Assembly (NCBI RefSeq): GCF_001618175.1
Contig: NZ_LPXN01000001.1
Span: forward strand, 62,001 to 126,000
Source: Oceanibaculum pacificum
GTDB lineage: Bacteria > Pseudomonadota > Alphaproteobacteria > Oceanibaculales > Oceanibaculaceae
Direction of reading: 5' to 3'
DNA length: 64,000 nt
Shown piece by piece: positions 7,341 to 35,925 of the stretch; position 1 is the stretch's first letter; each line of letters starts with the position of its first letter. The notes beneath the pieces were generated by a model. That model had not been told where the DNA came from and did not search any database. It was given only the letters and a program-made list of their open reading frames with translations. The translations under genes and the position numbers were made by a program.

Positions 7341-7356
7341 TGTTTCACGTGAAACA
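7341..7356. other. parS: parS centromere site
   Basis: TGTTTCACGTGAAACA is a perfect 16-bp palindrome identical to the conserved ParB-binding site. It lies between the rho/qor terminator and the end of qor, and is 9.8 kb from parB. Confidence 0.93.
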
Positions 7357-7368
7357 GTCCCGATTGCG

Positions 7369-8343
7369 TTACGGCTGCATCACCGTCGAACCGGTGGTCT
7401 TGCGACCCTCCAGATCCTGATGGGCCTTCACGGCATCCTTCAGCGCATAGGTCTGATTGATGTCGATGGTCACCTTGCCGGTCTTAACCGCGTCGAACAG
7501 ATCGTTGGTGGTTGCGACCAGATCGTCCCGCTTGGCGGTGTAGGTCATCAGGGTCGGACGGGTCAGGAACAGCGAGCCCTTAGCCGACAGCACACCCAGA
7601 TCGAGCGGCGGCACATTGCCGGAAGACTGGCCGAAGGCCACCATCAGCCCCAGCGGCTGAAGGCAGTCCAGCGATTTCATGAAAGTATCCTTGCCGACGC
7701 CGTCATAGACCACTGGCACACCCTTGCCGTCGGTGATCTCCTTCACCTTGGCGACGAAATCCTCCTGCTTGTAGAGGATGGTGTGATGGCAGCCATGGGC
7801 CTTGGCGAGCGTCGCCTTCTCCTCATCGCCGACCGTCCCGATGACTGTAGCGCCCAGGGCCGCGGCCCACTGGCAAAGGATCAAGCCGACGCCGCCGGCG
7901 GCGGCGTGCATCAGGATCGTATCACCGGCCTTCACCTTGTAGGTGCGGCGGATCAGATACTGGGTGGTCATGCCCTTCAGCATCATGGCCGCGGCCTGCT
8001 GATCGCTGACGCCTTCGGGGATTTTCACCAGCCGGTCGGCGGCGATGATGCGCGCCTCGGAATAGCTGCCCGGAGGGCCGGCGGCGTAGGCGACGCGGTC
8101 GCCTTCCACCAGATCCTTAACGTCGGAACCGACAGCTTCTACGATGCCCGCGCCCTCCATGCCGATGCCGGCCGGCAGGGGCAGGGGGTATAGGCCGCTG
8201 CGATGATAGGTGTCGATATAGTTGAGGCCGACCGCCGTATGGCGGACCCGCGCCTGGGACGGGCCGGGAGCGGGAAGATCGATATCCTCCCACTGCATCG
8301 CCTCGGGGCCGCCGGGCTTATGAATGCGAAACGCCTTTACCAT
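7369..8343 (-). CDS. qor: Quinone oxidoreductase (NADPH, zinc-independent MDR family)
   Basis: The 324-residue protein belongs to the medium-chain dehydrogenase/reductase family and should reduce quinones or other enones with NADPH. It has an N-terminal GroES-like fold (GLNYIDTYHRSGLYPLPLP) and a Rossmann domain with AAAGGVGLILCQWA near residue 150. The zinc-binding cysteines of alcohol dehydrogenases are absent, as in the Qor subgroup. It ends a minus-strand group with the hydrolase, ogt and YyaL-like genes. The natural substrate is unknown. Confidence 0.9.
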   Translation of the reverse strand: MVKAFRIHKPGGPEAMQWEDIDLPAPGPSQARVRHTAVGLNYIDTYHRSGLYPLPLPAGIGMEGAGIVEAVGSDVKDLVEGDRVAYAAGPPGSYSEARIIAADRLVKIPEGVSDQQAAAMMLKGMTTQYLIRRTYKVKAGDTILMHAAAGGVGLILCQWAAALGATVIGTVGDEEKATLAKAHGCHHTILYKQEDFVAKVKEITDGKGVPVVYDGVGKDTFMKSLDCLQPLGLMVAFGQSSGNVPPLDLGVLSAKGSLFLTRPTLMTYTAKRDDLVATTNDLFDAVKTGKVTIDINQTYALKDAVKAHQDLEGRKTTGSTVMQP

Positions 8344-8353
8344 TTTGGGCTTC

Positions 8354-9049
8354 CTATTTCAGGTTTTTCTTGAGGAACTCGGCGGTACGCTGGTTCGCCT
8401 GCATCGCGGCGTCGCGATTATAGTGCTCGCCGCCGACGCGGGCGAACGCATGGTCCATACCGGGATAGACGTGGATGGTTACGTTCCCATTGCCTTTCAG
8501 GCCAGCGATAAATTTAGCCTGCGCTTCCTTCGGGACGAATTTGTCTTCTTCAGCGACATGCATCAGAAGCGGGTTGCGGATGCCGGTGGCTTCGTTCAGA
8601 AGCGCGTCAATGCCGACGCCGTAATAGGAGACGTTGCAATCCGCATCGGAGCGCGCCGCCATCAGGAAAGCCATCTTGCCGCCCAGGCAATAGCCTATGG
8701 TGCCGACCTTGCCGTTGCTGCCCTCAATCTCACGGCCGACCTTCACGGTGGCGATCAGATCGTCGATGCCCTTTTCGACATCGAAGCCGCCGAAGAGCTC
8801 GAAGGCGCGCTTCCATTCGGCCTCGGTCTTGTCGGTGAGCTGGATGCCCGGCTCCTGGCGCCAGAAGATATCCGGGCAGATGGCGATATAACCGTCGGCG
8901 GCGAGATCATCGCAAATATCCCGCATGACCTGGTTAACACCGAAAATTTCCTGAATGACGACCATGACGGGCGCCATTGTCTGCCTCGGCTTGGCGACAT
9001 AAGCCATGAACGAGCCGCCATCGGCGGCTTGAATGGTTATTTCGGGCAT
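8354..9049 (-). CDS. Dienelactone hydrolase family protein
   Basis: The 231-residue product is an alpha/beta hydrolase of the dienelactone hydrolase family, whose best-known member opens dienelactones in chlorocatechol breakdown; most genomic members have unknown substrates. The nucleophile elbow GYCLGGK carries a cysteine in place of serine, as in true family members, and GMDHAF supplies the histidine. I chose ATG at 9049 because GGAGGAAACTT stands directly upstream; an open frame to 9382 is noise over ogt. It is 10 bp from qor. Confidence 0.87.
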   Translation of the reverse strand: MPEITIQAADGGSFMAYVAKPRQTMAPVMVVIQEIFGVNQVMRDICDDLAADGYIAICPDIFWRQEPGIQLTDKTEAEWKRAFELFGGFDVEKGIDDLIATVKVGREIEGSNGKVGTIGYCLGGKMAFLMAARSDADCNVSYYGVGIDALLNEATGIRNPLLMHVAEEDKFVPKEAQAKFIAGLKGNGNVTIHVYPGMDHAFARVGGEHYNRDAAMQANQRTAEFLKKNLK

Positions 9050-9129
9050 AAGTTTCCTCCCGGATGTTTCGAATCGGCTTGATGATGGCCGCTTGGAAAA
9101 AAGATTCAAGCTGGCGGATAGGCTTTCGG

Positions 9130-9600
9130 TTAATCGAATGCGAGCAGAGGTAGGGCAGGGGCCTCCCGATCGAGCAGCTTCGCCTTGGTCTTCTTGCCGT
9201 CGCCGCCGCTGAAGCCGACCAGCTTGCCGTCCTTGCCGATCACGCGATGACAGGGAATGAAGATGGGAATCGGGTTGGCGCCGCAGGCGGTGCCAACCGC
9301 ACGCGCGTTGGAGCCGATCTCCCCGGCGATATCGCCATAGGTCCGGGTTTCGCCATAGGCGATACGGCACATGGCATCCCACACGGCTTGGTGGTGCGTT
9401 GGGCCTTCAGCGTTCAGCGGCAGATCAAACTGGTGGCGCTGGCCGGAAAAATAGCCTTCGAGCTGTCGGGCGGCTTCCTGTAACAGCGGATCGTCGCTAT
9501 TTTCGGGGCCATTGGCGGCGAAGCGCAGGCGGGTGATCCGTCCGGCCTCGGCCTGGATCGTTACCGGGCCGACAGGTGTGTCAACGCAAAGGCGACTCAT
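9130..9600 (-). CDS. ogt: Methylated-DNA-[protein]-cysteine S-methyltransferase
   Basis: The protein transfers the alkyl group from O6-alkylguanine in DNA onto its own cysteine, a single-use repair reaction. The 156-residue product has the active-site PCHR motif (IPIFIPCHRVIGKDG) and the GETRTYGDIA helix-turn-helix segment. Its start overlaps the end of the upstream YyaL-like gene by 4 bp, which suggests translational coupling. There is no AraC-like N-terminal domain, so it is an Ogt-type and not an Ada-type enzyme. Confidence 0.93.
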   Translation of the reverse strand: MSRLCVDTPVGPVTIQAEAGRITRLRFAANGPENSDDPLLQEAARQLEGYFSGQRHQFDLPLNAEGPTHHQAVWDAMCRIAYGETRTYGDIAGEIGSNARAVGTACGANPIPIFIPCHRVIGKDGKLVGFSGGDGKKTKAKLLDREAPALPLLAFD

Positions 9601-11642
9601 GAGGGTCGCCGCGCGCTGCGCAGCGCGGTGGCCAGCGCTTCGGGATCGGTGAAGGGGAGGGAGCAGACCGGCCCGATGCAGAGATAGGTCGCCGCCCGGC
9701 CATCCTTCATAAGCTTGCCGGATGCCGGATGCGTGGCGGGCAAGGCGGCCGAGAGCGGTACTTGCTGGAAGATGAGGTCCGGCGCCGAACTATCGGCGAC
9801 GACACGGCGCAACGCCTGGGTGGAGATTTGCTCGGTCGGGCCGACCAGCACCAGCTGGAGCGGCCGCTCCAGGAACTCGGCGGCGTTGATCAGTGTGGCC
9901 AGGGGGAAGAAGTTGCGCGTCACCTCACCGGAAAACAAGGTGACGATGCGGCGGGCCTTGGCCTCATAGGCATCATTGCCGGTCAGCAACGCCAGCGTGC
10001 CTAGGGCTGCCGCCAATGTTCCGTTGCCGGAGGGAGTGGCGCTGTCCTGCGCGTTCTTCGCCCGCAGGATTACGTCGGCGGTATCGTCGGCGGTGGCGAA
10101 ATAGCCGCCGGCAGGGTCTGCGTAATGTCGGTCCAGCACCTCGACCCAGCGTTTGGCTTGCTGCAGGAAGCGCTGTTCCATGGTGATCTGATGCAGCGTC
10201 AGCGCCGCGGAGATCATGTTGGCGTAGTCCTCCAGCGTTGCGGGGTGCTTCAAGATCCCATGCCGCCAGCTATGCCGCAGCCGGCCCTCCAGCGTCATCT
10301 CGGTCGCCACGAAGTCGAAGGCGCGGGCGGCGGCATGCAGCCATTCCGGACGGTTGAAAGCGAAGCCGGCGCGTGCCAAGGCGCGGATCATCAGCCCGTT
10401 CCAATCGGCCAGCACCTTATCATCCCAGCCTGGGCGGATTCGCTTCTCCCGCCAGTCCAGCAATTGCAGCCTAAGCTTCGCCAGCAGGCTTTCCTGACGC
10501 CCCGTGCCGAGGGTCGGTCGGTGATTGCGATGGAGGATTGTCTTGCCTTCCCAATTGCCCTCCGGCCTAACGTCATAGGCTTCTTTGAAGGCTTGGCGGT
10601 CTTCCACGGGGATGTCGGCCAGTGCCGTGTCTATCTCGGCCTCGCTCCAGACATAGAATTTGCCCTCTTCGCCCTCGCTGTCGGCATCGAGTGTACTGGC
10701 AAAGCCGCCCTTTTCGGTAACCATCTCGCGAAACAGCCAGTCGACGGTTTCCTCGATGCGCTGGCGATACAGCGGCCGACCGGTCTCCTGCCAGGCATGC
10801 AGCAAGACTTCGACCAACTGAGCGTTATCGTACAGCATCTTCTCGAAATGCGGCGCGAGCCATTCCGCATCGGTGGAATAGCGTGCGAACCCGCCGCCCA
10901 GATGGTCATAGATACCACCCTGGCACATGCGATCCAGCGTCAGGGTGACGGCGTCGCGGAAGCGTTCCTCCCCGCGGCGCAGATAGGCGCGCCACAGCAG
11001 CAGCAGGATTGTCGGTTGTGGGAATTTGGGCGCCTGGCCGATGCCGCCATGCACCGGGTCGATCTCGGCCAGAAGCCGTTCGGCGATCTGCTCGATAATG
11101 CCGGCGGGCAGGCCCGCGCCTTCACTGGGCTGAGATAGGCGGGAGAGCGCCTGGCGCAAGCCGGTTACGTTACGCTGCACCCGGGCAGGATCCTTTTCGT
11201 AAGCCTCTGCGATGCTTTGCAGGGTCGCCTTGAAGGAGGGCCTTCCATAGCGCGGCTCCTTGGGGAAATAGGTGCCGCCCCAAAAGGGTTCGCCGTCCGG
11301 CGTCAGGAACATTGTCAGTGGCCAGCCACCTTGTTCGCCCAACATGGCAAGCGCGGATTGGTAGATATGGTCGATATCCGGGCGCTCTTCGCGGTCGACC
11401 TTCACATTAACGAACAGCCGGTTCATTAGCTCGGCGGTCTCGTCATCCTCGAAACTTTCATGTGCCATCACATGACACCAGTGACAGGCGGCATAGCCGA
11501 CGGAAAGCAGAATTGGTCGGTTGGTCGTTTTCGCGCGCTGCAGCGCCGCTTCTCCCCACGCCATCCAATCCACAGGATTATTCTGGTGCTGTAGCAGATA
11601 GGGGCTGGTTTCCTGCGCCAGTTGATTGGCTTGGCTGCTCAT
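9597..11642 (-). CDS. Thioredoxin domain-containing protein, YyaL/SPATA20 type (DUF255)
   Basis: The 681-residue cytoplasmic protein has an N-terminal thioredoxin-like domain with ACHWCHVMAHESFED at about residues 47-61, followed by a long six-hairpin-glycosidase-like helical region (GGIYDHLGGGFARYSTD, WLAPHFEKMLYDNAQL). These features define the YyaL/SPATA20 family, whose reaction is not established. It is the first gene of the minus-strand group with ogt, the hydrolase and qor. Confidence 0.9.
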   Translation of the reverse strand: MSSQANQLAQETSPYLLQHQNNPVDWMAWGEAALQRAKTTNRPILLSVGYAACHWCHVMAHESFEDDETAELMNRLFVNVKVDREERPDIDHIYQSALAMLGEQGGWPLTMFLTPDGEPFWGGTYFPKEPRYGRPSFKATLQSIAEAYEKDPARVQRNVTGLRQALSRLSQPSEGAGLPAGIIEQIAERLLAEIDPVHGGIGQAPKFPQPTILLLLWRAYLRRGEERFRDAVTLTLDRMCQGGIYDHLGGGFARYSTDAEWLAPHFEKMLYDNAQLVEVLLHAWQETGRPLYRQRIEETVDWLFREMVTEKGGFASTLDADSEGEEGKFYVWSEAEIDTALADIPVEDRQAFKEAYDVRPEGNWEGKTILHRNHRPTLGTGRQESLLAKLRLQLLDWREKRIRPGWDDKVLADWNGLMIRALARAGFAFNRPEWLHAAARAFDFVATEMTLEGRLRHSWRHGILKHPATLEDYANMISAALTLHQITMEQRFLQQAKRWVEVLDRHYADPAGGYFATADDTADVILRAKNAQDSATPSGNGTLAAALGTLALLTGNDAYEAKARRIVTLFSGEVTRNFFPLATLINAAEFLERPLQLVLVGPTEQISTQALRRVVADSSAPDLIFQQVPLSAALPATHPASGKLMKDGRAATYLCIGPVCSLPFTDPEALATALRSARRPS

Positions 11643-11796
11643 GGTGATGCTGGGCCTTTCGCATGTCTGGCGGGCGCTATAGGCTTGATGCCCCTATGAA
11701 CCCCATAGTTGGAGATGCGCGGGCAGGACACAACCCCGTCCGTCGGCCGTACCTCCGACCGGGTCGCGGTCTCTGTTCTCGACAAAGGATGGACCC

Positions 11797-12060
11797 ATGA
11801 AGGTTACCGTGAATATCGATTGCACACCGGAGGAAGCGCGCCAATTCTTCGGCCTGCCCGATGTGAAGCCGATGCAGGACGCGGTTATGACGGAATTGCA
11901 GGAGAGGCTGCTCGGCGGCATCAAGCAGATGGACCCGGACGCGATCCTGAAAAGCTGGTTTCAAGGTGGGCAGGCAGGTATGGCCTCGATGGAGGCTTTG
12001 CAGAAAATGTTCTGGGGCCAATTTAGTGAGAGCACGGGCAAGGGAGAGAAGAAATCGTGA
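11797..12060 (+). CDS. Small conserved protein, DUF6489 type
   Basis: The 87-residue protein (MKVTVNIDCTPEEARQFFG) matches a small family common in alphaproteobacteria and annotated only as DUF6489. No membrane segment or catalytic motif is visible; the middle is helical and rich in Met and Gln, and the end is charged (GKGEKKS). Its stop overlaps the GTG start of the ferredoxin-like gene (GTGA), so the two are probably translated together. Function unknown. Confidence 0.8.
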   Translation: MKVTVNIDCTPEEARQFFGLPDVKPMQDAVMTELQERLLGGIKQMDPDAILKSWFQGGQAGMASMEALQKMFWGQFSESTGKGEKKS

Positions 12061-12437
12061 GTATGGCCGATACCAAAGCGTCGCGTCTTCAACCAGGCGA
12101 TCCGGCGCCATACTACGAATGCCACGTGTTCTGTTGCACGAACCGACGCCCGGACGGGCATAAGCGCGGCTCCTGCGCGGCGGCGGGCGCAGAACCGTTG
12201 CGCAATTACATGAAGGCCCGCGCAAAGGAACTGGGCATCTCCGGCACGCGGATCAATATCGCCGGTTGCCTTGATCGCTGCGAGCTGGGGCCGGTGATGG
12301 TGATCTATCCGGAGGGCGTCTGGTATAGCTATCGGGATCAGGCCGATATCGATGAGATTCTTCAGAGCCACGTCAAGGAGGGGCGGCGGGTTCAGCGATT
12401 GCTGCTCCAGCCCGAGGATGGCGCGACAGAGGGGTAA
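12057..12437 (+). CDS. Thioredoxin-like [2Fe-2S] ferredoxin
   Basis: The 126-residue product has cysteines in the arrangement of thioredoxin-like [2Fe-2S] proteins: ECHVFCCTNRR near residue 22, GSCAAAG near residue 40, and the GCLDRCELGPVMVIYPEG segment near residues 70-87. It should carry electrons in the cytosol; the partner is unknown. The GTG start overlaps the preceding stop; an ATG two codons later is an alternative. It ends 21 bp before mnmE. Confidence 0.87.
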   Translation: MSMADTKASRLQPGDPAPYYECHVFCCTNRRPDGHKRGSCAAAGAEPLRNYMKARAKELGISGTRINIAGCLDRCELGPVMVIYPEGVWYSYRDQADIDEILQSHVKEGRRVQRLLLQPEDGATEG

Positions 12438-12458
12438 GCGGGGCAGGGCGTTAACCGC

Positions 12459-13781
12459 ATGAGCGGCCATACCATCTTTGCGCTGGCCAGCGGAGCCGGA
12501 CGCTCGGGCATCGCGGTAATCCGCATTTCAGGTCCGCTGGCGCGGCAGGCGCTGTCGGCGCTGACGCGCCGGGAGCTGCCCCCGCCCCGGCAAGCAAGCT
12601 TGCGGCTGCTGGCGATGCCTGAGAGCGGCGAAATGCTGGACCACGCGCTGACTCTCTGGTTCCCCGCGCCGCACAGTTTTACCGGGGAGGATGTGGTTGA
12701 GCTGCATCTCCATGGCGGTCGCGCGGTTATCGCTGGCGTGATCGAAGCGCTGAGTGCTCTGCCGGATCTGCGGCTCGCCGAACCGGGCGAATTCACCCGG
12801 CGCGCTTTTCTTGCAGGCAAGCTCGACCTCACGGAGGTGGAAGGGCTGGCCGATCTCATTGATGCGGAAACAACGGCGCAGCGCCGGCAGGCCTTGCGGC
12901 AGATGGACGGCGCCTTGTCGGGGCTTTATGAGGATTGGCGGACCCGATTGATCCGGTGCCTGGCGCATACCGAGGCGGCGATCGACTTCGCCGATGAGGA
13001 ATTGCCGGCGGACATGATGTTGGCCATCCAGGCTGAAGTGCAGGGTTTGCGTCAGGAGATGCAGGCGCATTTAGCCGATGGCCGGCGCGGCGAGATGCTC
13101 CGCGAGGGATTTCGCATCGCCATCATCGGCCCCCCCAATGCCGGCAAATCGAGCTTGTTGAACTGGTTGGCGCAGCGCGACGCCGCCATTGTCTCGGAAA
13201 TCGCCGGCACCACGCGCGATGTGATCGAAGCACATCTGGATCTCGGCGGGTATTCGGTGCTGCTTGCCGATACGGCGGGTCTGCGGGAGACGGTGGACGG
13301 CATAGAAGCAGAGGGAATTCGCCGCGCCCGGAATTGGGCGGCGGCCGCGGATTTGCAGCTATTGGTATTGGACGCCACGCAGCCAGAGCCGGTGGGCACT
13401 GTCTCGGATGCCCCCATGATAAGGGTCTTGAATAAGGTAGACCTCAAGATTAAGGGGCATACCTGTCAGTCATTCCCAATTGATGCGATGTCCATATCAG
13501 TTCGCACCGGCGAAGGGCTGGACGCGTTGCTGCAGAAATTGACCGGATTGGTCGCGGAAAAGCTGGATATGGCCGGGACACCAAGCCTCACCCGTGAGCG
13601 GCACCGGGCGGCGGTGACGCTGTGTGTCGAGGCCTTGGATCGGTTTCTGAAGGGGCGGGCGGCCGACCTGGCTGCCGAAGATATGCGTGTTGCGCTTCGG
13701 GCGCTGGGCCGCATCACCGGGCAGGCCGACGTGGAGGATTTACTCGATGTGATCTTTCGGGATTTCTGCCTAGGGAAGTGA
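12459..13781 (+). CDS. mnmE: tRNA uridine-5-carboxymethylaminomethyl modification GTPase
   Basis: MnmE with MnmG installs the cmnm5 group on wobble uridine 34 of several tRNAs. The 440-residue product has the N-terminal formyl-THF-binding domain, an embedded G domain (GPPNAGKSS G1 loop near residue 222, DTAGLRE G3), and the C-terminal FCLGK whose Cys437 is the conserved catalytic residue. Its partner gene mnmG lies 75 bp downstream, separated by a parS site. The window has a tRNA-Gln(UUG), one of the known substrates. Confidence 0.96.
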   Translation: MSGHTIFALASGAGRSGIAVIRISGPLARQALSALTRRELPPPRQASLRLLAMPESGEMLDHALTLWFPAPHSFTGEDVVELHLHGGRAVIAGVIEALSALPDLRLAEPGEFTRRAFLAGKLDLTEVEGLADLIDAETTAQRRQALRQMDGALSGLYEDWRTRLIRCLAHTEAAIDFADEELPADMMLAIQAEVQGLRQEMQAHLADGRRGEMLREGFRIAIIGPPNAGKSSLLNWLAQRDAAIVSEIAGTTRDVIEAHLDLGGYSVLLADTAGLRETVDGIEAEGIRRARNWAAAADLQLLVLDATQPEPVGTVSDAPMIRVLNKVDLKIKGHTCQSFPIDAMSISVRTGEGLDALLQKLTGLVAEKLDMAGTPSLTRERHRAAVTLCVEALDRFLKGRAADLAAEDMRVALRALGRITGQADVEDLLDVIFRDFCLGK

Positions 13782-13801
13782 TCCGGCAGAGACTTTCACA
13801 A

Positions 13802-13817
13802 TGTTTCACGTGAAACA
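13802..13817. other. parS: parS centromere site
   Basis: A perfect TGTTTCACGTGAAACA palindrome lies in the 75-bp gap between mnmE and mnmG, 3.3 kb from parB. Confidence 0.94.
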
Positions 13818-13856
13818 TCACTTTAAGCGCCGCCGCAAAATCGCTAAGGTGCGGGC

Positions 13857-15725
13857 ATGCAATTATTCGATGTTATCGTTATCGGCGGCGGTCATGCCGG
13901 CTGCGAGGCGGCAGCCGCATCGGCCCGTTTAGGCGCGTCGACGGCGCTGATTACACATCGCCGCGACACTATTGGCGTCATGTCCTGTAATCCGGCGATC
14001 GGCGGGTTGGGCAAGGGCCATTTGGTGCGCGAGATCGATGCGTTGGATGGGCTGATGGCGCGGGCCATCGACCAGGCCGGTATCCAGTTCCGCATGCTGA
14101 ACCGAAGCAAGGGCGCTGCGGTGCGCGGTCCGCGTGCGCAGGCCGATCGCAAGCTCTACAAAGCGGCTATGCAAAGGCTGCTGGCCGAGCAGGATCGGCT
14201 AACGATTATCGAAACCGGCGTGGAGGATCTTATCCAGGGCCCTAACGGGTGCATCGCCGGTATCGTGACGGCAAGGGGTGAAACCATCGCTGCCGGAGCT
14301 GTTGTGGTGACGACGGGCACCTTTCTGCGGGGTTTGATCCATCGTGGTGACGAACGGGTGCCGGCTGGGCGGATTGGCGAAGCGCCGGCCATTGGTTTGG
14401 CACATCGTCTTCAGGCGGCCGGCTTCGCGTTGGGTCGGCTAAAGACGGGGACACCCCCGCGTCTGGATGGCCGCACGATCGATTGGCGGGCGCTTGAGGT
14501 GCAAGAGGGCGATGATCCGCCCGTGCCTTTTTCCTTTCTGACGGAGCGTATTTCAACGCCGCAGATTGTTTGCCATATCACCGAGACGCGGTCCGAAACC
14601 CACGCGATCATTCGCGACAACCTGCATCGTGCGCCGCTCTATTCCGGCCAGATTACCGGGACCGGCCCGCGCTATTGCCCGTCCATTGAAGACAAAGTGG
14701 TGCGGTTTGCCGACAAGTCCCGGCACCAGATTTTCCTGGAGCCGGAAGGCCTGGATGATCACACGATCTATCCGAACGGCATATCGACGTCCTTGCCCGT
14801 CGACGTGCAGAAAGCGTTGATCGCAACCATGCCGGGTCTGGAGCGGGCGGTGATATTGGAGCCGGGCTACGCGATCGAATATGATTTTGTCGATCCGCGA
14901 GAGTTGAAACCGACGCTCGAAACCCGCCGATTGCCGGGCCTCTTCCTGGCGGGCCAGATCAACGGTACGACCGGTTATGAGGAGGCAGCGGCCCAAGGGC
15001 TGATGGCGGGATCGAACGCCGCTCTCCTTGCCGGCGGACAACAGGATGGCGGCTTCACGCTGGATCGTGCCGACGCCTATATCGGCGTGATGATCGACGA
15101 TTTGGTGACGCGTGGCGCCGACGAGCCGTATCGCATGTTTACCTCGCGCGCGGAATATCGATTGCTGTTGCGCGCTGACAATGCGGATCAGCGGTTGACC
15201 CGAAAGGGAATGGCCATCGGTCTGATCGGCAATGACCGCAGCGCGGCCTTTAACGCGAAGGCAAGAGCGCTTGAGGCAGGTCGTGCCTTACTGGCGAGCC
15301 TGCAGGCTACGCCGAATGAATTGGTGCGGCATGGCATCCCGGTTAACCAGGATGGTGTTCGTCGCACGGCAAGCGAGCTTTTGGCTTATCCGGAGATCGA
15401 CATTGCCCGGCTCGCAACTCTTTGGCCGGAATTGGCGGCGCTGGAGCCTAAAATCGTGCAGCAGCTCGAAATAGACGGAGTCTATGCCGGCTATCTTGAT
15501 CGGCAGCGGGCCGATATCGACGCTTTCCGCAAGGATGAGGCGCTGGCTTTGCCCAGCGATCTGGACTATTCGGGGATTGGCGGGCTGTCGGCGGAGATTC
15601 GAGGTAAGCTGGATCGGACGCGGCCCACAACCTTGGGGGCCGCATCGCGAATCCCAGGGATTACGCCGGCGGCCCTGATGGCTTTGCTGCGCTATGTTCG
15701 GGCCGGAAACCGGAAAACCGCCTGA
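13857..15725 (+). CDS. mnmG: tRNA uridine-5-carboxymethylaminomethyl modification enzyme, FAD subunit
   Basis: MnmG (GidA) is the FAD- and NADH-dependent partner of MnmE. The 622-residue product starts with the dinucleotide-binding [19 protein letters not shown] and has the family signatures [21 protein letters not shown] and [17 protein letters not shown]. The C-terminal helical region ends in a [16 protein letters not shown] segment typical of the full-length enzyme. rsmG begins 1 bp after its stop. Confidence 0.97.
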
Positions 15726-15726
15726 T

Positions 15727-16336
15727 ATGCCGGCAATTTCAGGACCGGACCACTTGCGGGCTCATCTTCCTGTTTCACGTGAAACACTGGATCGGCTGCA
15801 AATCTATGTCGATCTGTTGCGGAGATGGCAGAGGGCGGTGAATCTCGTCGGCCCCAGTACGATCGAGGAGGTCTGGACCCGGCATATCCTCGATTCGGCT
15901 CAACTTCTGGCCTATATTCCCCAACAGGCAAAGAGTTTGCTTGATATTGGAACTGGTGCTGGCCTCCCCGGCCTTATCCTGGCTATCATGGGCGTCGAAC
16001 AGGTTCACCTGATGGAATCGGACGCCAAGAAGGTGACTTTTCTGCGCGAAGCGGCTCGATTGACGAAAACCAATGTGACGTTGCATCACGGCCGGATCGA
16101 AACACTAGAACCGTTTCCGGTCGATGTCGTGACGGCGAGAGCGTTAGCATCGGTCGAGGGACTACTGGATTATACCAGGCCATACCGGCAGGCGGACAGT
16201 GTGTGCCTCTTCCTCAAGGGAGGGGGGGTCGAGCAAGAGCTGCGGCAGGCCGCAACGCGTTGGAAAATGACGGTAAATCAGTTTCCAAGCGCCACGGCGG
16301 ATGAGGGCGTAATCCTTAAACTGGAGGCCATACGCG

Positions 16337-16347
<11 letters not shown>
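15727..16347 (+). CDS. rsmG: 16S rRNA (guanine-527-N7)-methyltransferase
   Basis: RsmG (GidB) methylates G527 of 16S rRNA using SAM. The 206-residue product has the SAM-binding LLDIGTGAGLPGLILA near residue 78 and the later VDVVTARALASV. The ATG at 15727 immediately follows the mnmG stop, so an upstream in-frame codon at 15694 is rejected. A perfect parS site is embedded in codons 15-20 (PVSRET), so this stretch must serve both the protein and ParB. Its 3' end overlaps parA by 11 bp. Confidence 0.96.
15771..15786. other. parS: parS centromere site inside rsmG
   Basis: A perfect TGTTTCACGTGAAACA palindrome lies within the rsmG coding sequence, 1.4 kb before parB. The reading frame encodes V-S-R-E-T through it. 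Confidence 0.93.
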
Positions 16348-17160
<813 letters not shown>

Positions 17161-17161
<1 letters not shown>

Positions 17162-18156
17162 TGGCACGGGAAAAACGACAGAATCTCGGGCGCGGCCTCG
17201 ACGCGCTCCTGGGCGAAGACAGTGACGATTACGCCGAGTTGGACCGCTTGCGGCAAACCAAAACCGTGCCAGTGGAGTATCTGGAGCCTGGGCCGTTTCA
17301 GCCCCGCCGCTATTTCGATCCCGAGGATATGACGGCGCTGATCGAGTCGGTGCGCGACAAGGGTGTGCTTCAGCCGATCCTGGTGCGCCGCCACCCGGCC
17401 GATCCGACGCGCTACCAGATCATTGCCGGCGAACGCCGCTGGCGCGCCACGCAGGAGGCGCAGCTGCACGAGGTGCCGGTCGTCATCCGTGATTTCGACG
17501 ACCGACAGGCGCTGGAAGTAGCTCTGGTCGAGAACATCCAGCGCCAGGATCTGACGCCGCTGGAAGAGGCCGAGGGCTATCAACGCCTGATGGAGGAGTT
17601 TGGCCATACCCAGGAAGAGCTGGCGACTGTCATTGGCAAGAGCCGCAGCCATATCGCCAATATGATGCGCCTGCTCGGCTTGCCGCCGCTGATCCGCCAG
17701 GCGGTGGAGGAGGGGAAGCTGACCGCCGGCCACGCCCGCGCCCTGCTCGGCGCGCCGGAATCGGAGGCGCTTGCTGCCCAAGTCATCAGCAAGGCGCTGA
17801 ATGTGCGCGAGACCGAACGTTTGGTGCAGAAGGCCAAGGATGGCGCGACCGAGGGCGGCAAGCGCCGCGCTTCCGGTTCCGGACGCCGCGCCGGCGGCGA
17901 AAAGGATGCCGATACGCTGTCGCTGGAACGCGACTTGTCGGCACTGCTCGGCCTGACCGTGTCGATCGATTTCGAATCCGGAGCGGGCGGCGTTCTGGCG
18001 ATCCGGTATCGCACGCTGGAACAGCTCGACGATGTGCTGTCGCGTCTTAGCCGCGGCGGCGGCCGGGCGGAAAGGATGCCTGCCGACAGGGATGCGGGTT
18101 ACGAGGATATAGATTCCGACGACCCGCTGGTGCCGTCGGCCGACCCCGAGGATTGA
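17161..18156 (+). CDS. parB: Chromosome partitioning protein ParB
   Basis: ParB binds parS, spreads along DNA as a CTP-dependent clamp, and activates ParA. The 331-residue product starts at the ATG that overlaps the parA stop (TGATG) with the typical [14 protein letters not shown]. The CTP-binding GERRWRA box lies near residue 92, followed by the helix-turn-helix [27 protein letters not shown] that reads parS. A low-complexity linker leads to a C-terminal dimerisation domain. Its stop abuts that of convergent holA. Confidence 0.96.
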
Positions 18157-31339: not shown

Positions 31340-31442
31340 AAGCCACGGGACAGGCGCTCGCGCTGTCGTCACGCGCTGTTGAGCGGCGGGGAGCGCAAGC
31401 GCGGCTTATGCTCCGGTACCGATTGTCTCTGGGGTGTTCCGT

Positions 31443-32792
31443 ATGGTTTCGCTGTCGCCGCTGATCCGGCTGTTCCGCCCGTCGCCTCGCATATTGCTGC
31501 CGGCGCGCATGACGGCTGCGATCGAGGCACAGCAGGCGGAAAGCGAGATATTGATCGGCTGGGTGCAGCTCGCCGTCGTGCTTACTTTCGCCATCCTCTA
31601 TTCGCTGGCGCCGAAAACCTTCCATGCGGACATCATGCTGCAGCCCGTCCCCTGGGCGCTTGGAATCTATGCCGGCTTCACCCTGTTCCGCCTGCTGCTG
31701 GCGCACCGCCGCCGGCTGCCGGGCTGGTTTCTCTATCTCTCCATCGTCGCCGACATGGCGCTGTTGTTGGTGACGATCTGGAGCTTCCATATCCAATATC
31801 AGCAGCCGCCCTCCTTCTATCTGAAGGCGCCGACGGTGCTTTACGTGTTTATTTTCATCGCCTTGCGGGCGTTGCGCTTCGAGGCGCGCTTCGTGCTGGC
31901 GGCTGGCGCCGCGGCGGCGCTGGGATGGCTGGCGCTGGTCTATTACGCGGTGTTCTCGACCATGGAGAACCCGATGATCACGCGGAACTACGTCACCTAC
32001 CTCACCTCCAACGCCATTCTGCTGGGGGCCGAGTTCGACAAGATCATTTCCATCCTGCTGGTCACGGCGGTGATTGCCGCAGCCATTCTGCGTGCCCGCG
32101 CCCTGCTGGAGCGCGCGGTGATCGACGGCGCGGCGGCGCGTGACCTGTCGCGTTTCTTCGCGCCCGAGGTGGCGGCGCGGATTACCGCCGCCGAGCATCG
32201 CATCCGTGCCGGCGAGGGCGAGATGCAGAACGCGGCGATCCTCACCGTCGATATTCGCGGTTTCACGAAATTGTCGATGGAAGCGCCGCCGCGCGAGGTG
32301 ATGGCGCTGCTGTCGGAGTATCAGTCACGGGTCGTGCCGGCAATCCAGCGCCAGGGCGGCAGCATCGACAAATTCCTGGGCGACGGCGTGATGGCCACTT
32401 TCGGCGCGGCACTACCGACGGAAACCTACGCTGCCGATGCGCTGCGCGCCGTGGATGCCGTGACGGCGGCGGTGACGCTGTGGAATGGCGAGCGGATCGC
32501 GGCGGGACTCGCTCCCTTGCGCATCGGCGCCGCGGTCAGCACCGGGCCGGTCTTGTTCGGCGCGGTCGGCGACGATACGCGGCTGGAATATACGGTCATT
32601 GGAGAAGCTGTGAATCTGGCCGCCAAGCTGGAGAATCACACCAAGCGCGAAGGGGTGACGGCCTTGGCGCCGGCGGCGGCCTACGATCTGGCGCTGATGC
32701 AGGGCTACCGCGCCCCGGCCACCGCGCGACGCTTGCCCGCCCGTCACGTGGACGGGGTGGAGGGGCCGCTCGATCTGGTGGCGATCGCCTAG
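31443..32792 (+). CDS. Membrane-anchored class III adenylate/guanylate cyclase
   Basis: The 449-residue product has six probable membrane spans in its first 220 residues, then a linker (RDLSRFFAPEVAARI), and a cyclase catalytic domain. The two metal-binding aspartates are in ILTVDIRGFTK and KFLGDGVMATFG; the lysine in DKFLGD suggests adenine preference, and YTVIGEAVNLAAKLE completes the site. It should make cAMP at the inner membrane. A GTG at 31434 is an alternative start. No signal-sensing domain is recognisable in the membrane part. Confidence 0.9.
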   Translation: MVSLSPLIRLFRPSPRILLPARMTAAIEAQQAESEILIGWVQLAVVLTFAILYSLAPKTFHADIMLQPVPWALGIYAGFTLFRLLLAHRRRLPGWFLYLSIVADMALLLVTIWSFHIQYQQPPSFYLKAPTVLYVFIFIALRALRFEARFVLAAGAAAALGWLALVYYAVFSTMENPMITRNYVTYLTSNAILLGAEFDKIISILLVTAVIAAAILRARALLERAVIDGAAARDLSRFFAPEVAARITAAEHRIRAGEGEMQNAAILTVDIRGFTKLSMEAPPREVMALLSEYQSRVVPAIQRQGGSIDKFLGDGVMATFGAALPTETYAADALRAVDAVTAAVTLWNGERIAAGLAPLRIGAAVSTGPVLFGAVGDDTRLEYTVIGEAVNLAAKLENHTKREGVTALAPAAAYDLALMQGYRAPATARRLPARHVDGVEGPLDLVAIA

Positions 32793-32870: not shown

Positions 32871-33011
32871 ACGCGGGCCGCACCATAAGCGCTAAATCGG
32901 GGCTGCGCAAGATCGCAACAAACGCCTTGAAACCCGCCATTTCAACCGCCGCTTAACAGCTATGGCGCGATCTGTTACTTGTTGGTAGTGCCGGCATGGC
33001 GCGGGCGGCGG

Positions 33012-33434
33012 ATGAGTGGGATGGCCCAGGACAAACCCCAGCATAAAACCAAGGATAAACCCCAGGATAAGCGCAGTGTCCCCTGGAGCATCAAGGGGGT
33101 TTCGAGCGAAGCCCGGGAGGCCGCGCGCGCCGCCGTCGACGCTTCCGGCAGGACCATGGGCGAATGGCTGAGCGAGGCGATCCGTGCGGCGGCGGAAAAA
33201 CAGGCGGCCCCGGCACTGCCGGAGGCGCCGGCCCGGATCGAGCCGTCACCGGTGGAACTGGCGGAATGGCAGGCGCTGGTCGAGCGTATCGAGGCGGCGG
33301 AACGGCGGAATGCGCTGATGGTGGCCCCGCTGCATGAAATCCTGACGACCATAGCGCGGCGGCTGGAATCGCTGGAATCCCGGATCGACAAGCGGACCGA
33401 GAGCCCGGTGGAAACACCCGAAGATCAGCGGTAG
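33012..33434 (+). CDS. Small protein with the PodJ-type N-terminal module, copy 1
   Basis: The 140-residue protein begins with a charged repeat rich in Asp, Lys, Pro and Gln (DKPQHKTKDKPQDK), then the module PWSIKGVSSEAREAARAAV...GEWLSEAI. The same module opens the next two genes. A short coiled-coil-like C-terminus (RRNALMV to LEIR) follows; no membrane span is visible. The ATG at 33012 is chosen; ATG at 33021 is an alternative. Function unknown; the module suggests the same partner as PodJ. Confidence 0.7.
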   Translation: MSGMAQDKPQHKTKDKPQDKRSVPWSIKGVSSEAREAARAAVDASGRTMGEWLSEAIRAAAEKQAAPALPEAPARIEPSPVELAEWQALVERIEAAERRNALMVAPLHEILTTIARRLESLESRIDKRTESPVETPEDQR

Positions 33435-33467: not shown

Positions 33468-33938
33468 ATGGCACAGATATCACCCTGGAGCGTCAAGGGC
33501 GTTCCCTATGAGGATCGGGAGACCGCAAAGGCGCTGGCCCGGCAGGCCGGCCTGCCGCTGGGGAGCTGGCTCAGTCAATTGATCCGTGAAGCGAATGGCG
33601 CGCCGGTTGTGCAGGAAACGCCCCCGGAAGTTTCTTCAGACAGTCCCGTTTCGGAGCCGCTTGAAGCCGATGCCTTCACCTATCCCGTTGCCGACAGCTT
33701 GTCGTCGGATGTGGCGGAACGCCGCTTCGCCGCCTTGCAAACGCAAATCGATGCCTTGACGAGCCTGCTGCGCGATAGACCGCCCGCCGCCATGGCGGAA
33801 TCGATCGGCGAGACTGGCGCGCCGCTGGAGCGCGCGGTGATGCGGCTGTCGGAGAGAGTCCAGCAACTGGAGCAGGAAGTGTTCAACGAGGCGCCAGGCC
33901 AGGCCGGAATGATCGGCCGGCTGCTCGGCCGCCGCTGA
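33468..33938 (+). CDS. Small protein with the PodJ-type N-terminal module, copy 2
   Basis: The 156-residue product starts MAQISPWSVKGVPYEDRETAKALARQAG and reaches LGSWLSQLI with the same spacing as its neighbours. The middle is acidic; the last 60 residues can form a coiled coil (ERRFAALQTQIDALTSLLRD, RLSERVQQLEQEV). There is no membrane span. It sits 33 bp after copy 1 and 103 bp before the large gene. Confidence 0.75.
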   Translation: MAQISPWSVKGVPYEDRETAKALARQAGLPLGSWLSQLIREANGAPVVQETPPEVSSDSPVSEPLEADAFTYPVADSLSSDVAERRFAALQTQIDALTSLLRDRPPAAMAESIGETGAPLERAVMRLSERVQQLEQEVFNEAPGQAGMIGRLLGRR

Positions 33939-34041: not shown

Positions 34042-35925
34042 GTGAGCAAAGCCACGCCCTGGAGCGTCAAAGGGGTCGACGAGGAAACCCGGGCCCTTGC
34101 CCGGGATGCCGCGCAAGCATCCGGCCTGACGATCGGCGCCTGGATCGACCTGGCGATTCTGCGCCATGCTGGCCTTTTGCCTGTGGAAGAGAATCGCGCG
34201 CCTGAACTGGTTGATTCCTCTGATCAGGCCGCCGCGCTGGAAGCGCAGGCGGAAGCGCTGTCGCAGACCGCCGATGCCGCGGAACGGCGGCTCAACGCCA
34301 GTCTGAAGCCCGCCGCGCTGGATGTCGCCCAGGCCGCGCAACGCATGGTGGCGCTGGAATCCTCCTTCCGTGCCGGGGCGCCCTTTAAGCCGAAGCCCGC
34401 CATACTGGACGAGGCCGAGAGCGAAAGCAGCGAAACGCCGCCGGAAGACGGTACCGAGCCCGACTTCTCCCCGCCCATGCCGGAAGAGTCAGTGACGATC
34501 GAAGCGACGGCGGTGCCGCTCGAAGATGCGGAGAGGCTGGTCCGCGACGAAACGACCCCGGCAGAGGCGCGGCGGGTGTCGGGCAAGATGATCGTCGGAA
34601 CCGGCGTCCTGGCGCTTGGCATCGCCGCCGGGGTCGCCCTGATGAGCCAGGCCGACCGGATCGGTCTCGGCCCGGCCTTGCAGCGCCTGGAGCGAATGGT
34701 GGAGGGCTGGGTCGAGGATGTCGGCTCCAGCCTGCAACGCGAGGCGCGACCGGTCGAGCGAGCCGAGACACCGCCACCGTCACAATCGGCCCTTCCGGTC
34801 GAGCCGCCCCCGGCCATCGATCCGGCAACCCCGCAGGCCGTGGCCGCCGCCGCGCCCGAGCAGAGCGAGACATTTCCGGAGCCGCCGCCGCCAACCCCAG
34901 CGCAGGCGCTTCCAGCCGCGCCGCGCACTTTGCCGCCGCTGCGCGCCACCGAGGCCGCGCCGGAGCGACCGCCCGAAAGTGCCGCCGAACCGAAAGCGCC
35001 GGAGAAAGTGGCGGCCTTGACAGCGGCGGCCCCAGAGCCATCCGCGGCGGAGCAGCCGCCAGCCCCGCCACCGGCCCTGTCGCGGACCCGGCTGAATGAT
35101 CGTTCGGTGCCGCGTGAGCCGGCGGCCTTTGCCCGTTGGGTGGAGGATCGCGCGAAGCAGGGCGAACGCATGGCGCAGCACGATCTGGCCGTGCTCTTCG
35201 CCCAGGGCGAGGGCCGGCCGCAGGATATGGAGAAGGCTGCCTACTGGTTCCGCGAGGCGGCGGTGCAGGGAGTGGCGAACGCTCAGTATAATCTGGGCGT
35301 CCTGTACGAAACCGGCCGTGGCGTGCAGCAGGACGATGTGCGCGCGCTGCTCTGGTATCACAGCGCGGCCGAACAAGGCCATGCCAAGGCGCAGCATAAT
35401 CTGGGCAGCTTCTATGCCGCCGGCCGCGGTATCCCGGTCAGCTATGGCGAAGCGCGTAAATGGTTGCGCCGGTCTGGCGATCAGGGCTTTGCCCCGGCCT
35501 TGCGCGACCTTGCCCGCATTGAGGAGCGGGGCCTGGGCGCGCCGCCGGATATCGAGAAAGCCCGCGCGCTTTACGCCCAGGCCATGGTGCTGGGCGATGA
35601 GGAGGCAGCCAAGCGCTTGACGGCACTACCACCGGTTCCGGCCGGGGCCATGACAGTGGCGGCCGGCGCTGGCGGCGATTCCCTGGTGCTATCGCCTGAA
35701 GCCGAGCGCGAAACCATCCGGGCGGTACAACGTTTTCTGGCGGCCGGGGCCGCCGATGTCGCGGCCGATGGGTTGATGGGAGAAAAGACCCGCGAGGCGA
35801 TCCGGGATTATGAGCGCAAGGCCGGCCTGCCGATTACCGGTCAGGTCGGGCCGCGCCTGCTGAACCATATGATCTTGCGCTCGGTCCGCAGCGCCGGGGT
35901 GGATCGCGGCACTACCGTCCGGTGA
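34042..35925 (+). CDS. PodJ-like polar localisation protein with SEL1 repeats and peptidoglycan-binding domain
   Basis: The 627-residue protein starts at GTG with [23 protein letters not shown]...IGAWIDLAI (residues 5-40), the PodJ N-terminal signature. A short coiled-coil stretch spans about 60-110, one membrane span covers residues 183-203, and a Pro/Ala-rich periplasmic linker covers about 240-345. Three to four SEL1 repeats lie at about 375-525 ([32 protein letters not shown]), then a peptidoglycan-binding domain at 552-612. PodJ organises the new cell pole in Caulobacter; this homolog is shorter because the cytoplasmic coiled coil is reduced. It converges on ispE with a 14-bp overlap. 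Confidence 0.85.

Follow-up and report, generated by a model that had tools for sequence, protein, structure and literature searches.

A conserved gene cluster in Oceanibaculum pacificum links a PodJ-type protein with a short cytoplasmic part to two small proteins sharing its N-terminal RHH-like domain

The A-B-C cluster and its genomic setting

The window analysed here, a stretch of 64,000 nucleotides from the draft genome of Oceanibaculum pacificum, carries three adjacent genes on the forward strand, designated A, B, and C, the last of which encodes a protein of PodJ-type architecture. The genes and their recognizable parts are as follows.

33021..33434, + strand: gene A, 137 aa, an RHH-like domain plus one short coil segment (ATG at 33021)
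33081..33191, + strand: RHH-like domain of A (alignment A1; own-genome profile match, E 2.8e-19)
33468..33938, + strand: gene B, 156 aa, an N-terminal RHH-like domain plus coil segments
33483..33593, + strand: RHH-like domain of B (alignment A1; own-genome profile match, E 1.0e-18)
34042..35925, + strand: gene C, PodJ-type protein, GTG start, 627 aa
34057..34167, + strand: RHH-like domain of C, residues 6-42 (own-genome profile match, E 1.1e-19; AlphaFold; structure matches)
34216..34371, + strand: single long cytoplasmic helix of C, residues 59-110 (AlphaFold model; heptad scan marks 55-89)
34585..34662, + strand: membrane helix of C, residues 182-207 (hydropathy 2.19 at residue 183; AlphaFold helix)
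35119..35625, + strand: Sel1 repeats of C, residues 360-528 (PF08238, 2.1e-31; AlphaFold helices)
35695..35892, + strand: peptidoglycan-binding domain of C, residues 552-617 (PF01471, 2.2e-9; AlphaFold helices)

The start of A is uncertain, an ATG at 33012 or a TTG at 32979 also being possible. Upstream of the cluster lies an ORF (31434-32792) whose C-terminal part resembles, by eye, an adenylate/guanylate cyclase domain. A promoter and terminator scan yielded nothing useful. Within its own genome, the profile of the N-terminal domain matched exactly A, B, and C at E<0.1, and a search with C retrieved C itself, the N-terminal ends of A and B, and, from two further contigs, matches to its Sel1 part. 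The initial annotation had named a separate long PodJ in the same genome as evidence that would count against its reading; searches of the draft assembly (3.89 Mb, 181 contigs, 91.8% complete) brought up no further PodJ-like gene, though one may lie on a missing contig. The genome also contains a popZ gene (DUF2497, E 1.8e-24).

Architecture of protein C and comparison with PodJ

Pfam assigns to C the Sel1 and PG_binding_1 families listed above and a weak second peptidoglycan family, with no further families at E up to 1, and hydropathy analysis indicates a single clear membrane span at residue 183. In the AlphaFold2 model, built from 21 related sequences and with a mean pLDDT of 69.8, two N-terminal helices (14-27 and 31-42) precede the long helix at 59-110, after which confidence is low up to residue 181, leaving a stretch of about 71 residues (111-181) between that helix and the span. 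Beyond the membrane helix, a further helix (210-240) is followed by a low-confidence linker leading to the Sel1 helices. Because the hydropathy span at 183 and the predicted helix at 182-207 coincide, the cytoplasmic part can be placed at about 181 residues, which bears out the value of about 182 given in the initial annotation; its statement that coiled coils are nearly missing from this part was also nearly right, except that one helix of 52 residues remains.

The comparison value of about 600 residues for Caulobacter PodJ agrees with the constructs described in the available text of two papers, namely PodJ(1-635), which lacks the membrane tether (PMC8980812), and PodJ1-601, the soluble cytoplasmic part (PMC9684454). 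Like Caulobacter PodJ, C has a cytoplasmic N-terminus, crosses the membrane once, and carries Sel1-type repeats and a peptidoglycan-binding domain in the periplasm, in a genome that also encodes PopZ. Unlike Caulobacter PodJ, with its about 600-635 cytoplasmic residues and six coiled coils (CC1-6), C has about 181 such residues, with one helix and a short disordered part; a coiled-coil-rich cytoplasmic region was found neither by AlphaFold nor by the heptad scan. A further difference is that C is preceded by two genes encoding the same N-terminal domain, an RHH-like domain that goes unmentioned for PodJ in the available portions of PMC9684454, PMC10127582, and PMC8980812. Among the literature matches listed, no title or abstract mentions a PodJ with an RHH-like domain or a fusion of such a domain to ParB. 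Since two of the tested features of PodJ are absent from C, membership in PodJ proper is not claimed, and the possible orthology of C and PodJ is argued from architecture.

A shared N-terminal RHH-like domain

A, B, and C begin with the same domain of about 40 residues, with the pattern PWSxKGV...R...G.W. In alignment A1, which comprises 49 domains from the window and from 17 of 21 alphaproteobacterial loci, seven columns (W, S, K, G, R, G, and W) are invariant in all 49. In our view, this domain, absent from the initial annotation, is the most informative feature of the cluster. Its AlphaFold model (pLDDT 85.7) has an extended N-terminus and helices at 9-22 and 26-37, giving a predicted strand-helix-helix arrangement of about 42 residues. 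Foldseek searches with this model returned mostly RHH proteins in the top rows, with a best E of 0.93, and a second structure aligner, which re-ranks Foldseek's own matches, gave Z scores of 5.8 to CopG and VapB12 and 5.6 to Arc. We take 39 of its 40 best rows to have the RHH fold, the other being a designed beta-alpha-alpha protein.

The sequence link is weak. The TacA1 family was touched by 7/49 domain members (best E 0.014), and a few members touched NikA-like (2), Rv0623-like (2), and HicB (1) families, which are presumably RHH as well; families unrelated to RHH appear beside them, such as RuvA_C (3 members, best E 0.0019). Profile comparison by hhalign gave A1 12.6% with TacA1 and 9.8% with RHH_1, compared with 0.1-3.9% for four control profiles against A1, 8.3% for the unrelated pair of RHH_1 and a peptidoglycan-binding profile, and 95.7% for the true pair of RHH_1 and TacA1. 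The domain is therefore termed RHH-like by its predicted fold: it shares the predicted strand-helix-helix order with CopG, Arc, the N-terminus of PutA, and TacA, but its sequence similarity to them is weak and, unlike in those proteins, it heads scaffold-type proteins, including a membrane protein. In a tree of the domain, the copies of A, B, short C, and long C clustered by type, with 10 label changes against a mean of 53.1 after shuffling.

Conservation of the unit in Alphaproteobacteria

A genome scan recovered 27 loci, 21 of them alphaproteobacterial with the motif and six without it. A small domain gene precedes C in all 21 alphaproteobacterial loci, and a second small gene is present in 16/21, so that three domain-bearing genes stand in a row in 16 loci and two in the other five; the recurrence of C with small neighbours in 21/21 loci is more than chance. 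Within the taxonomic order to which the window belongs, three such genes are present in 4/4 genomes covered (that of the window and three of the same genus). The small gene of the five two-gene loci was labelled A and used in training the A profile; it may instead be B, since in the domain tree the copy of their family, f51, adjoins the B of f97.

In a sample of the whole class, the domain was detected in 90/386 genomes, no more than 18 candidates from the first look being scored in any one of them, and the regions of the 89 genomes besides the window were fetched and rescanned. A C gene, defined by a Sel1 match over 60 residues and a length over 250, was found in 57 of the 90 domain-bearing genomes. 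Other arrangements were also observed. Two RHH-like proteins of 723 and 513 aa (L082:4298-6466 and L101:4447-5985) end soon after a membrane span and have no Sel1 match, and may be PodJ-type proteins without the periplasmic part. Lone small RHH-like genes occur in families f30 (L080, L109, L158) and f62 (L086, L112, L130, L145), with no PodJ-type gene beside them in the fetched regions. At locus L118 (genome G191), the C gene apparently lies in two open frames (186 and 242 aa), reflecting a frameshift or an assembly error. The two-gene cluster at L015 resembles clusters from lake MAGs, and its label, Rhizobium sp. Q54, may be wrong.

Cytoplasmic length and upstream neighbours

The length of the cytoplasmic part differs markedly with gene context. 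In C genes preceded by an RHH-like gene (30/57), this part measures 82-575 residues (median 214) and in 29 of the 30 does not exceed 372, whereas it measures 467-1069 residues (median 594) in those without one (27/57; Mann-Whitney p 2.6e-10, n=57). Three of the latter, in family f73, carry a small gene downstream instead, and an upstream neighbour is possible in G290 and G183, where only 442 and 1052 upstream bases are covered. The exceptions are G198, with 575 residues, and, in the set of 21 loci, L018, with 476 residues and both neighbours. Four lengths in the group with upstream genes (G072, G125, G198, and G269) were taken from the ORF start, as no RHH match was found there, a domain-like segment being visible by eye in G072 and G198; G060 and G250 have weak membrane spans (1.52 and 1.36), and L026 gave no reliable measurement.

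In a tree built from the periplasmic part (56 rows, without G072), neighbours change once and length twice, and there is one independent pair. The contrast thus lies close to a single deep evolutionary split, and the data describe two architectures and not repeated co-variation; a reading of the correlation as repeated co-variation was accordingly rejected in spite of its p value. With respect to the initial annotation, C is short by comparison with the long forms, as its word "shortened" implies, while the direction of change in that word is assumed.

Coil segments in B, short C, and long forms

The N-terminal domain of the long forms scored best as B in 20/27, as A in 5/27, and as C in 2/27, with B-over-A margins often of a few bits. 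A B-coil profile built from A-B-C clusters matched 19/27 long forms at E<0.01 and 15/27 at 1e-5, compared with 2/27 and 0/27 for reversed long forms and 0/27 for shuffled ones; an earlier build, which also drew on a truncated long form and an atypical family, had matched 23/27, and some genomes are present twice in the coil-profile sets. In 14 of the 19 matched long forms, a listed copy starts at residues 46-75, directly after the domain, and seven long forms have at least three copies among the matches listed. The same profile matched 7/47 short C proteins (1/47 when reversed) and, at E<0.01, 13/34 reversed A sequences (none at 1e-5), so that it partly reflects coil make-up and is not very specific. 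In the other direction, a profile of the short-C cytoplasmic part matched A in 30/34 and B in 12/34, with 0/34 for each reversed set, which suggests one coil segment common to A, B, and C.

The proposal in the initial annotation that the neighbours bring coiled coils of their own holds in kind, in that each of the three coil profiles (A, B, and C) detects the other two more readily than it does reversed sequences, with one of these controls being poor. It fares less well in amount. By a crude heptad count that skips windows containing proline, A of the window is unmarked and B is marked at 74-104 only at a laxer threshold, and across genomes the short-form clusters carry a mean of 25 coil-like residues in total against 224 in the long forms. 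The neighbours therefore fall short of the coil deficit, and a simple supply in trans does not follow. The suggestion is partly supported: in its favour are the searches of the draft genome, which gave no separate long PodJ, the conserved unit, the short C with partners and the long C without, and the B coil in 19/27 long forms; against it are the helix that C keeps, the difference in coil content, and the closeness of the length contrast to one split.

A test of domain topologies gave p 0.58 for grouping the long form with B and p 0.41 for grouping it with short C. A case for fusion from phylogeny was consequently set aside, as the domain tree gives no decisive grouping of long forms with B, and it is the class scores and coil similarity alone that favour B. 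The simplest reading of these sequence comparisons is that long PodJ-type proteins would hold B-like and C-like parts in one chain, whether by fusion or by fission.

ParB fusions and the chromosomal context

The same window also contains a chromosome partitioning locus, given here as context.

16337..17161, + strand: parA (named by eye from the ORF list)
17161..18156, + strand: parB (start 17161 estimated; the listed ORF begins at 17089)
7341..7356, + strand: parS, perfect site (match to assumed consensus)
13802..13817, + strand: parS, perfect site (match to assumed consensus)
15771..15786, + strand: parS, perfect site (match to assumed consensus)

ParB of the window has a PF02195 match (8.6e-35) at G000:C1:79257-79541, which corresponds to window positions 17257-17541. 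The site search used what we take to be the parS consensus and returned three exact matches and one with three mismatches, with 0.03 expected at up to three mismatches. In the interval 7341-17161, the three perfect parS sites lie around genes that are mnmE-, gidA-, gidB-, and parA-like by eye, and mark this as the centromere region. The cluster lies about 15 kb from parAB and 17-26 kb from the parS sites, and it is 15-20 kb from parB in 6/6 genomes of f1 (the family of the window) and f97. Closeness of the cluster to parB does not hold generally, the two being far apart in G271, G178, and G011.

Two genes upstream of C appeared ParB-like by eye, which prompted a Pfam scan of ten domain-bearing proteins. 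Seven of them, from five alphaproteobacterial families (f7, f15, f55, f70, and f103), pass the ParB_N cut-off, and the other three have no Pfam match over the cut-off. In these fusions, the RHH-like segment precedes the ParB_N and ParB HTH domains.

L121:4227-5228: RHH-ParB fusion
L096:2615-3667: RHH-ParB fusion
L078:7129-8124, - strand: RHH-ParB fusion
L075:1028-2386: RHH-ParB fusion
L156:4372-5346, - strand: RHH-ParB fusion
L084:3903-5150: RHH-ParB fusion
L087:3906-5012: RHH-ParB fusion

Six of the seven stand upstream of C, while for the seventh (G057) the region fetched contains no C gene. With E values calculated for 100,000 sequences, the RHH match is 5e-3 to 1e-4 in five fusions and 2e-5 and 2e-10 in the other two. 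Among the five genomes of the taxonomic order that includes f103, the full-length fusion was matched in three, and in a fourth, G386, an RHH-like segment is seen before ParB by eye. A separate ParB is present in all fusion genomes except G017; a single branch of modest support (80/81) separates fused from main ParBs, and GERR occurs in only 3/7 fused ParBs. In the window, by contrast, ParB is a protein of its own, and no RHH-like domain was found in it. According to the model ranges, the strand Lys of the RHH-like domain occupies positions that we assume to be DNA contacts in Arc and PutA, and in some sequences of the class it is replaced by Ala, Asp, or Glu.

A proposed model and its alternatives

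The reading favoured here, with a probability of roughly one half, is that the conserved unit of A, B, and C functions in the manner of PodJ, with the scaffold distributed over three polypeptides. In this model, the RHH-like domain would act as a dimerization module through which the three proteins could pair. C would be the component spanning the membrane, its Sel1 and peptidoglycan-binding domains holding the assembly to peptidoglycan, while A and B would add short coil segments on the cytoplasmic side that could build a scaffold there, presumably at the cell pole. In other alphaproteobacteria, one long PodJ-type chain runs from an RHH-like domain through several coil units to the membrane anchor; the B-type coil in 19/27 long forms is what one would expect of B and C as portions of a single PodJ. 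PopZ is a candidate partner, since PodJ and PopZ orthologues co-localize in the species tested, according to the available text of PMC10127582. That text also describes binding of Caulobacter PopZ by CC4-6 of PodJ, and PMC8980812, in the portion available, describes binding of PleC by its disordered region. As C lacks a long CC4-6 or disordered region, partner binding must differ or reside on A and B.

Several other explanations deserve weighing against this divided scaffold. It is very improbable that C owes its short cytoplasmic part to a wrong start, a frameshift, or misassembly: the genome is a draft in 181 contigs and C begins with GTG, yet the corresponding part is of similar length (215-242 residues) in three genomes of its genus, and the domain of C starts at residue 6, as in many relatives. 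An unlikely but more substantial alternative is that the cluster tethers the chromosome to the cell wall, the RHH-like domains binding DNA, or ParB via A, and C holding the centromere region at the polar envelope. The RHH-ParB fusions in five families, the presence of parAB and three perfect parS sites on the same stretch, the distance to parB shared by the f1 and f97 genomes, and the position of the strand Lys all point in this direction. However, the RHH match is weak in most fusions and GERR is missing from the majority of fused ParBs, the strand Lys is not constant, and cluster and parB are far apart in three genomes. In addition, ChIP with GFP-PodJ of A. tumefaciens was barely above background at ori1 and ori2 in the results available from PMC9239152.

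It is also rather doubtful that C is a Sel1/peptidoglycan-binding envelope protein with a role of its own, A and B being adjacent paralogues with separate jobs, so that no PodJ-like polar scaffold would exist. Small genes without a PodJ-type gene in the fetched region, such as those of f30 and f62, are compatible with such independence, as is the absence from C of most partner-binding regions described, in the accessible text, for the cytoplasmic part of Caulobacter PodJ. The occurrence of small genes upstream of C in distant families, the domain common to all three proteins, and the B-type coil in long PodJ-type proteins argue against it. A more speculative idea would combine scaffold and tether, with the RHH-like domain as a common plug: C at the peptidoglycan, B as coil linker, and either A or an RHH-ParB fusion as adaptor on the side of the chromosome would be connected in a chain that reaches from the cell wall to the centromere and fixes the replication origin at the pole, with the three-protein form as an ancestor of, or an alternative to, single-chain PodJ; this too appears improbable.

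In the available text of the cited work, PodJ has been studied as one long chain. If the divided scaffold is correct, and part of the class assembles it from several proteins through a small dimerization domain, the functions packed into PodJ would be genetically separable. Moreover, the predicted RHH-like domain on PodJ-type proteins, together with the ParB fusions, raises a testable question of direct contact between scaffold and chromosome.

Motif counts and plasmid matches

A plasmid search with a long form gave Sel1-part matches only, among the best 10 of 76 records. The repeat AE#R#A#AI reported for CC4-6 of Caulobacter PodJ in the available text of PMC9684454 was tried in a relaxed form as a coil marker and discarded, as it is not enriched in A (0 occurrences; shuffled mean 0.14), B (0; 0.14), short C (1; 0.14), or long C (2; 0.62). 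The shorter motif AERR occurs once in each of the three window proteins, and enrichment of AE[RQKELST]R is confined to A (15 against 2.63).
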